64,000 nt of DNA from Pectobacterium atrosepticum (GTDB taxonomy: Bacteria > Pseudomonadota > Gammaproteobacteria > Enterobacterales > Enterobacteriaceae). Of this stretch, positions 17,286 through 19,808 are shown piece after piece. The notes below the pieces were generated by a model that did not search any database, had not been told where the DNA came from, and was given only the letters and a program-made list of their open reading frames with translations. Position numbers and translations under genes: made by a program. The stretch spans positions 1,054,001-1,118,000 of the forward strand of contig CP036163.1 in assembly GCA_019056595.1 (NCBI GenBank), read 5' to 3'. Position 1 is the first letter of the stretch; each line of letters begins with the position of its first letter.

Positions 17286-17304
17286 GTGCAATTCACGGGC
17301 CATA
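17286..17304 (-). promoter_or_regulatory. nifE sigma-54 promoter (-24/-12)
   Basis: On the minus strand TATGGCCCGTGAATTGCAC shows TGGC and TTGCA elements with GG-N10-GC spacing. The predicted start is near 17276, 33 nt before the nifE ATG. Confidence 0.85.
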
Positions 17305-17335: not shown

Positions 17336-17351
17336 TGTCGCCTTTGTGACA
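17336..17351. promoter_or_regulatory. NifA upstream activator sequence 1 of nifE
   Basis: TGTCGCCTTTGTGACA fits TGT-N10-ACA. It lies about 67 bp upstream of the predicted nifE start and overlaps the second site by 7 bp, inside a 27-bp perfect inverted repeat. Confidence 0.75.
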
Positions 17352-17360: not shown

Positions 17361-17391
17361 ATAGCGGAATATTGAGGGGAGTGGTGTTACT

Positions 17392-17429
17392 GGGCTCCGT
17401 TTGGATATCGAAAATTATTGTACGTTAAG
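17392..17429 (+). repeat. Left 38-bp terminal inverted repeat of the cassette
   Basis: It begins GGGCTCCGTTTGGATATCG and ends TTGTACGTTAAG. All 38 bases match the right repeat in inverse orientation. Confidence 0.95.
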
Positions 17430-17532
17430 GCTATTTTTTGTACTAACTGACAGCCATTGATCAAGCAGATAGAACAACACGATTAGGGTCAGACACATCG
17501 AAAACAGAATCGCATACGGGTTTAATTACACG

Positions 17533-18141
17533 CTACAAACGTGCGGTGTCCCATAATTTCATTATTTGCGCGATGCCCCGTAGTGTCTCTTTCAGCGGCA
17601 CATTATCCCGGGCGAGCGTCGATATTCCCACCAGAAAACTGTCAAAACAGACCGCCTGGGAAAGGGTATCCTCACCATTAACAAGCTCACCGCTGTTTAT
17701 GCCTCTCTGTAAGCAATGCTTTATTCCCTCCCTGGTGTGACGCCTTGACTCAGCAAGGGGCTTCAGGAGATCCCCGTTTTCATCAGAGCATAGGGGCATT
17801 ACGCTGAGCGCAACCATACATCCCCGAGGATGCCCGGGTTCGTACTGCATTTTTGCCGAATTCGTTAATGCCATCTCCAGCGCCTGTCGTGGAGGCAGGT
17901 TGGGATCCCAGAGCGATGATGTTACCTGTGCATGTGTTTTCAGATAACAATCAACTGCCTCGTTAAAAAGAGAGGCTTTCGAACCAAACGCCGCATAAAA
18001 ACTGGGCGCACTGATCCCTTTGCCTATCGAGGCCTTCAGGTGGGCAAGTGATGTTGCCTCATAACCCTGTTCCCAGAAAAGATGCATTGCCTGTACGACA
18101 GCTTCATCTCTGTCAAACTGCCTTGGTCTGCCTGTTTTCAT
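17533..18141 (-). CDS. TetR-family repressor of the cassette
   Basis: The 202-residue protein has an N-terminal TetR helix-turn-helix (about 10-58: FDRDEAVVQAMHLFWEQGYEATSLAHLK through SAPSFYAAFGSKASLF) and a helical ligand-binding half. Such proteins repress divergent efflux genes until a toxic ligand binds. It is divergent from the MFS gene, with two near-identical operator candidates between them. It points toward nifE, and no intrinsic terminator is seen after it. It lies wholly inside the Tn3-type cassette and was presumably acquired with it. Confidence 0.88.
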   Translation of the reverse strand: MKTGRPRQFDRDEAVVQAMHLFWEQGYEATSLAHLKASIGKGISAPSFYAAFGSKASLFNEAVDCYLKTHAQVTSSLWDPNLPPRQALEMALTNSAKMQYEPGHPRGCMVALSVMPLCSDENGDLLKPLAESRRHTREGIKHCLQRGINSGELVNGEDTLSQAVCFDSFLVGISTLARDNVPLKETLRGIAQIMKLWDTARL

Positions 18142-18159
18142 GATCCTGCCCTCCTTAAA

Positions 18160-18177
18160 TATATACTAATCGATACA
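18160..18177. promoter_or_regulatory. Candidate TetR operator, copy 1
   Basis: TATATACTAATCGATACA matches the copy at 18214-18231 in 16 of 18 bases. It lies just upstream of the tetR start, within its promoter region. Confidence 0.55.
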
Positions 18178-18213
18178 AAATTCATTGACAACTCTCCCTC
18201 CCGACACTCAACA

Positions 18214-18231
18214 TATATACCGATCGATACA
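18214..18231. promoter_or_regulatory. Candidate TetR operator, copy 2
   Basis: TATATACCGATCGATACA contains a dyad around ATCGAT and repeats copy 1 with a 54-bp period. It lies upstream of the MFS gene, so one regulator could control both divergent promoters. Confidence 0.55.
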
Positions 18232-18300
18232 TTAATGATCATTTATAGCTGCCTTGTGAAATCCACGCAGGGTGAGAAATCTTCTGGAGAGTTATTTAAT

Positions 18301-19491
18301 ATGAAAAAACATACGCAAAATGATGAGGCTGATAGCCTGCCTGTTTTTGCTTTACTGGCACTGGCCATGACGGGTTTCATCTGTATATTGACCGAAACAA
18401 TCCCAGCGGGTCTTTTGCCTGGCATAAGTTCTGGCCTTAATATATCACCATCCGTTGCCGGGCAGATGGTAACCGCTTATGCAGCGGGTTCACTTCTGGC
18501 CGCCATTCCCCTGACTATCATGACCCAGGCATGGTCCAGACGTCTGGTTTTGCTTACTACGGTGGGCGGCTTTCTGCTCTTCAACAGCCTGACGGCTTTA
18601 TCTGATAGCGTTGCTGTCATTATGTGCGCCCGCTTTCTTGCCGGTGCAGCTGCAGGGCTGGCATGGAGTTTAATTGCGGGCTATGCAAGAAGAATGGTTG
18701 CTCCTTCACTTCAGGGACGGGCTCTTACGCTGGCAATGATTGGTACCCCTGTCGCACTTTCCCTTGGCGTGCCTGCAGGAACCTGGCTGGGGGATCTTCT
18801 GGGGTGGCGTCTGACCTTCGCCGTTATGTCCGGATTATCCGTGGCACTGATGGCCTGGATCATTCTGGCTGTTCCTGATTATCCAGGGCAGGCAACCCGG
18901 CAAAAAATGCGTCTCACTTCTGTCCTGTTGATCCCCGGTATCCGTCCTATTCTGGGAGTGGTTTTGACCTGGATGCTTGCGCACAATATTTTGTATACCT
19001 ATATCGCCCCTTTCCTGTCCCAGGCAGGGCTTTCATCAAGCGTGGATATTGTTCTGCTGGTTTTTGGCCTGGCTGCGATGGTCGGGATTTTCATCACCGG
19101 TAGGGTGATAGACTCCGGCCTGCGTATTGCCGTGCTTCTTTCACTTTCAGTATTCGCCCTTGTTTCGATCATCTTTGGTATTTCTGCCACATCCCCCGCC
19201 GTGATTTATCCCGGAATAGCAGTCTGGGGCCTGACGTTCGGAGGCGCTGCGACATTACTGCAAACAGCACTGGCAGATACGGCGGGTGAGCATGCTGATA
19301 TTGCGCTTTCAATGAATGTGGTGACCTGGAATAGCGCTATCGCTCTTGGTGGCCTTACAGGCGGGCTTCTGCTCAGACATGAAGGAGCCAGTTCTTTACC
19401 CTGGGCCCTACTTGCTCTGTTAATCGTTGCTCTGATTATTGCCTTTCGTGCCAGGAACCATGGATTCCCAGCGGGGGAGCGCTCATCGTAA
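18301..19491 (+). CDS. MFS drug/sugar efflux transporter
   Basis: The 396-residue protein is a 12-helix major facilitator of the AraJ/YdhP-like DHA1 group. It opens with FALLALAMTGFICILTETIPAGLLPGIS and has the family's LVLLTTVGGFLLFNSLTAL, the motif-A-like arginines after helix 2, and VGIFITGRVID in the second half. It should export small toxic compounds from the inner membrane by proton antiport. The ATG at 18301 follows GGAG by 8 nt; an open stretch 73 codons upstream overlaps tetR and is not used. Cargo of the cassette. Confidence 0.88.
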   Translation: MKKHTQNDEADSLPVFALLALAMTGFICILTETIPAGLLPGISSGLNISPSVAGQMVTAYAAGSLLAAIPLTIMTQAWSRRLVLLTTVGGFLLFNSLTALSDSVAVIMCARFLAGAAAGLAWSLIAGYARRMVAPSLQGRALTLAMIGTPVALSLGVPAGTWLGDLLGWRLTFAVMSGLSVALMAWIILAVPDYPGQATRQKMRLTSVLLIPGIRPILGVVLTWMLAHNILYTYIAPFLSQAGLSSSVDIVLLVFGLAAMVGIFITGRVIDSGLRIAVLLSLSVFALVSIIFGISATSPAVIYPGIAVWGLTFGGAATLLQTALADTAGEHADIALSMNVVTWNSAIALGGLTGGLLLRHEGASSLPWALLALLIVALIIAFRARNHGFPAGERSS

Positions 19492-19547
19492 ACAACTTGA
19501 TTATATTTTTGTCAGGGCGATTAAGCCTGCCCATGACTTTCTTATAA

Positions 19548-19661
19548 GAGGTCGTAAAAAAGGTCGAGGGGGCTGTGTTGGCAGGGTGTGGACACTGGCT
19601 ACCCGAGGAATGTCCGGCACCGTTGAACCCACTGGTTGTGAAATTTATTAACGACCAATAA
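19548..19661 (+). pseudogene. C-terminal remnant of an alpha/beta hydrolase
   Basis: After a stop at 19545-19547, the frame reads about 37 residues ending in [20 protein letters not shown] and KFIND before a stop. This is the typical C-terminal block of alpha/beta hydrolases: the catalytic His in GHW followed by PEE-P. Everything upstream of it is missing. It probably marks a third gene of an ancestral tetR-MFS-hydrolase unit that was truncated when the cassette formed. Confidence 0.6.
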
Positions 19662-19680
19662 TAGCCCCTCTGTTTTCCAT

Positions 19681-19707
19681 AAAAACTACGCTTTCGCGTA
19701 GTTTTTT
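19681..19707 (+). terminator. Intrinsic terminator inside the cassette
   Basis: ACTACGC, loop TTTC, GCGTAGT, then six T residues. It stops rightward transcription from the MFS gene before the right inverted repeat, protecting the antisense strand of nifY. The A-run on the other side could let it work both ways. Confidence 0.9.
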
Positions 19708-19744
19708 ATCACTGGATATTTTCAGTTAAAGGTTAAAATTTAGT

Positions 19745-19782
19745 CTTAACGTACAATAATTTTCGATATCCAAACGGAGCCC
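19745..19782 (-). repeat. Right 38-bp terminal inverted repeat of the cassette
   Basis: It begins CTTAACGTACAA and ends CCAAACGGAGCCC, the exact reverse complement of 17392-17429. The target duplication TTACT follows at 19783-19787. Confidence 0.95.
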
Positions 19783-19808
19783 TTACTTGTGGGCTAAATA
19801 CTTGCGGG

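Follow-up and report, generated by a model that had tools for sequence, protein, structure and literature searches.

How old is a transposase-less cassette that lies with perfect transposon ends inside a nif gene cluster, and to which transposase do these ends belong? The question is raised by a stretch of 64,000 nucleotides from Pectobacterium atrosepticum (contig CP036163.1, positions 1,054,001 to 1,118,000; hereafter the window), in which a cassette of 2,391 bp is located between a nifY-type gene and nifE. Both of its terminal 38-mers read GGGCTCCGTTTGGATATCGAAAATTATTGTACGTTAAG inward and are identical as inverted repeats at 38 of 38 positions, which is far beyond chance, and the inverted arms reach 48 nt at 94% in a repeat search. 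The ends have the form of Tn3-type 38-bp terminal inverted repeats, GGG...ACGTTAAG, and are flanked on both sides by TTACT, a 5-bp target-site duplication that is present in two genomes; the adjoining bases (GTTACT and TTACTT) exclude a 6-bp repeat. A preliminary description of the window had reported the perfect repeats and the TTACT copies, and both were re-found at the same positions. Its assignment of the ends to the Tn3 family agrees with a 36/38 match to the ends of an element with a PF01526 transposase (TnpA), and profile searches and alignments bear out a cassette without transposase that holds a TetR-MFS pair and a hydrolase scrap in the gap between nifY and nifE. By its sequence, the cassette is a predicted non-autonomous member of the Tn3 family. 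The reading preferred here, with a probability of about two in three, is that it is an old deletion derivative of one transposon type (type B) whose inner ends were overwritten in place by end sequence of another (type A), and that this occurred in the window's lineage only.

Date of the insertion

Twenty-five genomes of the genus were checked for nifY and matches were obtained in three, the window's own genome and two labelled G015 and G016. G015, the sister genome, was matched to Pectobacterium peruviense IFB5232 (TetR identity 99%) and carries the same insert in the same orientation with the same TTACT copies. Between the window and G015 the tetR and MFS genes have diverged by 1.8% and the flanking nif genes by ~3%, and the synonymous divergence is 0.055-0.067 inside the insert and 0.070-0.136 in the nif genes. 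The perfect repeats and the duplication had been taken as signs of a recent insertion; because the sister genome has the insertion at the same TTACT with a diverged tetR-MFS pair, a recent event is ruled out. The insertion is therefore older than the separation of the window's species from P. peruviense, or at least than the last exchange of the locus. The perfect repeats are secondary here and are not a clock.

The preliminary description had anticipated an empty site with a single TTACT in sister strains. An insert-free nifY-nifE locus is present in G016, but there is no TTACT at this spot and the local sequence differs. The opposite outcome, in which relatives carry the insert with divergent ends and an empty site is missing, is also found only in part: the ends in G015 are mismatched to those of the window at 9 and 5 of 38 positions, but the locus in G016 is free of the insert.

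End types and the hybrid ends

Cassette-type ends recur in the same genome on a 112-kb contig, C1, which is taken to be a plasmid because a scan of ten of its larger open reading frames (ORFs) revealed one each with a relaxase domain, a TraG/D domain, a secretin and a secretion ATPase domain. The C1 transposon (the resident transposon) is 4,161 bp long and encodes a 995-aa TnpA (PF01526) and a 215-aa serine resolvase. The nearest solved relative of its TnpA is the Tn4430 TnpA (E 2e-214), and it is this element whose ends are 36/38 identical to those of the cassette. The resident transposon is flanked on both sides by TATATA (6 bp), and duplications of 5 or 6 bp are reported for such Tn3-family elements in the consulted part of PMC4133298. 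With up to 3 mismatches, the cassette 38-mer was found in its own genome only at both ends of the cassette and both ends of the plasmid transposon, which rules out a common chromosomal repeat. The suggestion that the repeat could identify the mobilising transposase was borne out to the extent that the TnpA family is identified and is present on the plasmid of the same genome. Near a chromosomal TnpA-like fragment (C2:481941, 58% over 76 residues), no matching end was noticed in the 1,001 surrounding bases, which were inspected by eye.

Two types of end were distinguished. Type A, as in the resident transposon, features GGGGTCAG in its outer part and GATATCGAAAATT in its inner part; type B, as in Serratia, Erwinia and Klebsiella plasmids, features GGGCTCCG and GGAAACGGAAAAT, and the two differ at end positions 4, 7, 14, 15, 17, 20 and 24. 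Examination of 29 sources for end and TnpA type yielded 14 elements whose own tnpA, in some cases partial or broken, could be typed, and the end type equals the TnpA type in 14/14 (7 A and 7 B, with L016 and L018 being nearly the same element). Among the 15 remaining sources, which lack a typable tnpA of their own, L130 has a type-B end with a type-A tnpA fragment lying outside it, L181 fits neither type, and the rest showed none. The A and B TnpA proteins share 77% of their residues.

In the window, the cassette ends have type-B bases at positions 4 and 7 and are of type A over positions 14-24. Those in G015 belong to type B and carry 4 additional changes on the left and 2 on the right. Differences between the two genomes are concentrated here, at 25/150 positions in the terminal 75 bp per side vs 202/7,537 elsewhere in the aligned stretch (Fisher p 1e-12). 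Over left positions 9-49 the window matches the resident left end at 41/41 and G015 at 32/41; over right positions 9-55 the matches to the resident right end are 46/47 and 36/47, respectively. Wherever the window and G015 differ in these two tracts, the window has the resident base (19/19; left 9/9, right 10/10). Comparison of the resident transposon with a Serratia type-B element makes 12 of the 19 differences informative, 6 on each side, and the sister has the type-B base at 11/12, so that plain decay of the sister's ends is ruled out as the sole cause. Just beyond the left tract (left 50-66) the window has the resident base at 0/3 differences from G015, and the tnpA tail that follows the tract is type-B-like in both genomes. 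A TnpA match is present in the window's genome and absent from that of G015, and for this reason the resident transposon or a close relative fits as the donor of the inner ends.

An alternative history starts from a cassette that was already hybrid-ended when it was inserted in the common ancestor, a B transposon having later converted the sister's ends to type B, or these ends having decayed. The cassette is common to both genomes, decay is real in the sister, whose ends are 4 and 2 mismatches from type B, and the seven differences that do not separate A from B fit this course as well. However, the 11 type-B bases include four positions that are the same at both ends (14, 15, 17 and 20), a pattern that random decay does not produce; both genomes have a type-B-like tnpA tail beyond the end, and G015 lacks a TnpA match. 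Additionally, no type-B inner end beyond those of G015 was found in the 25 genus genomes with up to 3 mismatches, and this history is considered unlikely. Two independent insertions of related cassettes at the same TTACT would explain the divergent ends in another way. TTACT does flank a type-B element elsewhere (L173), and the tetR-MFS pair is somewhat less diverged than its flanks, but the base, orientation and interior are the same in both genomes, the high divergence is confined to the ends, and an end replacement would still be needed; a double insertion is very improbable. An error of assembly or polishing, by which reads of the plasmid transposon overwrote the chromosomal ends in the consensus, would account for tracts that match sequence within the same assembly. 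It is improbable, as the tracts are 41-47 bp in unique flanks, below ordinary read length, and type-B outer positions are kept at both ends together with a type-B-like tail at the left.

Searches elsewhere returned no second end of the hybrid kind. The hybrid 38-mer has no other copy in 72,556 plasmid records and no copy in 20,395 E. coli records of 5,426 genomes, with a best match of 36/38 in both, and an exact scan of viral contigs gave no match. Allowing up to 2 mismatches, the cassette 38-mer is matched in 32/392 family genomes, the window's included, with the reversed control pattern in none among the matches listed; no other hybrid end was found there, and 49/49 other ends among the matches listed have a GGG[GAT]TCAG outer part. 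With up to 3 mismatches, 5 of 394 genomes of the order match and only the cassette is hybrid. A census of type-B ends (up to 3 mismatches) determined 26 ends in 14/392 family genomes, of which 24 combine the GGGCTCCG outer part with a type-B inner part, some with single changes, and these include the right end of G015. Elsewhere in the sequences surveyed, the type of the outer part goes together with that of the inner part. A query of plasmids with G015's right end gave no match, and therefore no donor of a type-B right end can be named.

Under the preferred reading, the parent of the cassette would have been a type-B transposon with the order left inverted repeat, tnpA, tnpR, passenger, right inverted repeat, because the tnpA tail and the outer positions are type B and G015 keeps aged type-B ends. 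This parent may have lost tnpA and most of tnpR while keeping the TetR-MFS pair, and the cassette would have been inserted between nifY and nifE, duplicating TTACT, before the two species split. Later, in the window's lineage only, the inner part of each end would have been replaced by the corresponding end of a type-A transposon, leaving the outermost bases, the duplication and the interior unchanged. Short-tract conversion or template switching is the likely route. Possibly one end was converted first and the other was copied from it through the inverted repeat, which also fits because both tracts start between positions 7 and 14. The re-ended cassette would carry inner ends that match the resident TnpA and may be mobilisable in trans. 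We infer the direction from B to A, the conversion route and the mobilisation by the resident TnpA from these sequence comparisons. For the more specific proposal, that both ends changed type in place, each taking its sequence from the matching end of a foreign transposon in the same cell, and that the cassette obtained the inner sequences of a new transposase without moving, the chances appear evenly divided. Tn3 ends consist of an outer domain for cleavage and an inner domain that TnpA binds, the two meeting near positions 7-14. If this two-domain layout holds, the cassette kept its old outer domain and gained the binding domain of the resident TnpA.

Several observations weigh against the overwriting of old type-B ends. 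The outer part is assigned to type B by two diagnostic positions per end (4 and 7), the hybrid ends are known from one assembly with one genome per species, and 7/19 of the tract differences do not separate A from B. Intermediate forms exist: the two remaining ends of the type-B census, which are odd, lie in G133 (GGGGTCGG outer, mostly type-B inner) and G239 (GGGCTCCG outer, altered inner). The left 41-bp tract is common in plasmids, the best 30 of 2,519 records all being 41/41, and this leaves the resident copy unproven as the donor. The sub-terminal variant on the right is uncommon, with 6 of the best 30 of 1,847 records exceeding 91.5% identity. The right tract may be shorter than 47 bp because the sister's right sub-terminal stretch is already type-A-like (36/47). 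The longest exact runs common to resident and type-B ends are 15 bp (left) and 14 bp (right), and runs of this length are short for RecA. Finally, the tetR-MFS pair is less diverged than the flanking nif genes (32/1800 vs 144/4867, p 0.007), which leaves room for a complex history, for example an exchange of the cassette between species.

Contents of the cassette and its locus

The features of the cassette and of the nifE upstream region are collected in Table 1. The cassette was aligned with six elements of the same transposon group, five of which have both ends in the stretch compared. Matches to them are confined to the ends, ~25 bp of tnpR and two short, weak alignments (21-26 bp), and tnpA and an intact tnpR are therefore absent. 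No TnpA of its own was found in the ORFs or the alignment with the six relatives, the sole tnpA alignment being the tail inside the left end, which is homologous to transposon left ends for 66-69 bp. The same alignment revealed no intact resolvase gene, only the probable tnpR remnant of 20-25 bp, and the alignment listing gives no match to the relatives' tnpA-tnpR spacer, a res model not having been searched. The remnant matches the resident tnpR at 19/20, reached by 0/1,000 shuffles, and is weaker in DNA against the type-B tnpR (17/20, reached by 4/1,000 shuffles), while the peptide that it encodes carries the type-B histidine. The simplest reading is that the cassette may have originated by internal deletion of a complete transposon, in which tnpA and most of tnpR were lost and the passenger was spared.

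Table 1. Coordinates of the cassette features and nifE upstream motifs in the window
Feature	Position	Strand	Remark
Left target-site duplication TTACT	17387..17391		Also in sister genome G015
Left 38-bp inverted repeat	17392..17429	+	Type B at outer diagnostic positions 4 and 7, type A at 14-24
Left tract, positions 9-49 of end	17400..17440	+	41/41 to resident plasmid transposon left end
Type-B-like tnpA tail remainder, left-end positions 50-66	17441..17457	-	Positions 1-66 to 1-69 align with relatives' left ends
Probable tnpR (resolvase) remnant, codes KQIEQH	17458..17482	+	Order and strand as in complete relatives
TetR-family regulator, 202 aa	17533..18141	-	PF00440
19-bp repeat, candidate TetR operator copy 1	18159..18177	+	Repeat comparison
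19-bp repeat, candidate TetR operator copy 2	18213..18231	+	89% to copy 1
MFS transporter, 396 aa	18301..19491	+	PF07690; nearest solved relative 'sugar efflux transporter' 6kkk, E 4e-25
Alpha/beta-hydrolase-like C-terminal scrap, 36 residues	19551..19661	+	Similarity to C-terminus of 316-aa proteins
Right tract, positions 9-55 of end	19728..19774	-	46/47 to resident plasmid transposon right end
Right 38-bp inverted repeat	19745..19782	-	Identical to left repeat
Right target-site duplication TTACT	19783..19787		Direct repeat of left copy
TGT-N10-ACA	17336..17351		Between insert and nifE; overlapping second match starts 17345
GG-N10-GC	17288..17301	-	nifE upstream, left intact by insert

The tetR and MFS genes are in divergent orientation and form a putative pump and its regulator. 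Their best relatives in family genomes show 79% and 76% DNA identity (G232 and G122), and the divergent promoter region with the two 19-bp repeats aligned, at least partly, to 7/7 relatives tried. The ratio of nonsynonymous to synonymous divergence (dN/dS) between the window and G015 is ~0.065 for tetR and ~0.084 for the MFS gene, and these low values suggest purifying selection. The hydrolase scrap itself has no Pfam match. A scrap-like stretch was found in 8/78 loci compared, one of which is the sister's own scrap, and two 316-aa proteins that feature such a stretch match Abhydrolase_1, one of the Pfam alpha/beta hydrolase families.

Of the two neighbours of the cassette, nifE matches TIGR01283 at 694 bits and the other gene encodes a NifX/NifY-family protein that lies under the TIGR02663 cut-off. 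The surrounding cluster also contains nifU, nifN, nifT, nifK, nifD, nifH, nifV, nifA, nifB and a pyruvate:ferredoxin oxidoreductase gene. Upstream of nifE, the TGT-N10-ACA motif is taken to be a NifA upstream site and the GG-N10-GC motif is presumably the sigma-54 -24/-12 motif of this gene. As the insert lies upstream of both motifs, nifE's own NifA/sigma-54 promoter is probably spared and read-through from nifY is probably cut. A spared promoter would explain why the insertion is tolerated. In G015 the corresponding motif is TTT-N10-ACA, not TGT-N10-ACA, and the NifA site may be weaker there. Elsewhere in the genus, some P. betavasculorum strains possess nif genes, according to the consulted part of PMC10991766.

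Related elements and meaning

Tn3-family transposons with a Tn4430-like TnpA, namely the resident copy and its plasmid relatives, share their 38-bp ends with the cassette, and in two relatives examined the passenger lies between tnpR and the right end, as in the cassette. They feature 5-bp duplications, or 6 bp for the resident copy, and the cassette has 5 bp; unlike them, the cassette lacks tnpA and an intact tnpR and is hybrid-ended. Resident transposon sequence occurs in 3,879/72,556 plasmid records, 544 of which have one place that covers at least 80%, and one decayed copy of the group is annotated 'TnEc1 family'. The gene tables of the two relatives give, as the passenger at this place, either a gene of the phosphotransferase family or an MFS gene accompanied by an ArsR-type regulator. 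Records that match the resident transposon name many genes: cation efflux, chloride channel, MFS with ArsR, DJ-1/PfpI, phosphotransferase and AraC/GlxA regulators. It is likely that resident-type transposons have a passenger-swapping site beside tnpR (plasmid and E. coli relatives H95-H123). The C1 plasmid also encodes a PAAR-domain protein with an S-type pyocin domain (L190:10847-12664, G000).

The tnpA genes of a type-A and a type-B element (L009:472-3459 vs L128:7034-10021) are 96-98% identical over the first 200 bp and 50-85% per 100 bp thereafter, and their tnpR genes are 84% identical; from these sequences, the A and B transposons look like recombinants that share a block around the tnpA start. 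A 9-kb stretch in G122 contig 8 (L173:133-9119) lies between type-B ends, with a further end inside, and its duplication, TTACT, is identical to that of the insert in the window.

Mobile insertion cassettes (MICs) of Bacillus carry a passenger gene between transposon ends without a transposase, and differ from the window's cassette in that their ends come from an insertion sequence (IS) family, not from Tn3. A second transposase-less cassette was found on the Salmonella Macclesfield plasmid NZ_CP022118.1 (L017:5004-6341; 1,338 bp), with an aminoglycoside-phosphotransferase-family gene. It resembles the window's cassette in its type-A inner ends, its 5-bp duplication (TGTTA) and its passenger-only content; however, it has another passenger, a plasmid site and altered outermost bases without the type-B outer part. 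In G348, inverted type-A ends lie 3.2 kb apart (C1:77134-80295), which is short for a tnpA-tnpR layout and marks a candidate transposase-less element.

In the consulted parts of PMC4133298 and PMC13367494, TIMEs, TIME-COMPs and TIME-RES are described as transposase-free elements with 38-bp Tn3-family ends and 5- or 6-bp duplications that use TnpA in trans. TIMEs are there miniature inverted-repeat transposable elements (MITEs) of 50-500 bp (PMC13367494), and TIME-COMPs are bounded on either side by a complete TIME (PMC4133298, PMC13367494). Measured against these descriptions, the cassette is alike in being transposase-free and in its 38-bp Tn3-family ends and 5-bp duplication, whereas it differs from TIMEs and TIME-COMPs in that each side has a single simple end and a deleted transposon has left traces of its tnpA and tnpR. 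Its size of 2,391 bp, its 48-nt arms and the lack of bounding miniature elements rule out its being a TIME or TIME-COMP. Miniature elements were seen elsewhere as inverted end pairs spanning 254-255 bp in K. variicola pKP187 (L127:11635-11888) and G133 (L185:3850-4104); they are near the 256-bp MITESen1 described in the consulted part of PMC13367494, to which they are likened by size alone.

Perfect repeats with a clean duplication are easily taken as a recent insertion. Repeat identity can mislead such dating, because the insertion is common to two species here and later overwriting seems to have produced the perfect repeats. To our knowledge, it is not settled how both ends of a transposon change together when the transposase changes. 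The locus offers a before/after pair of transposon ends at one fixed site and, if the overwriting is true, a direct look at the joint change of Tn3-family terminal repeats. The locus further suggests a way in which a transposase newly brought in by a plasmid could take charge of stranded passenger genes, which, if true, would be a route to renewed mobility.

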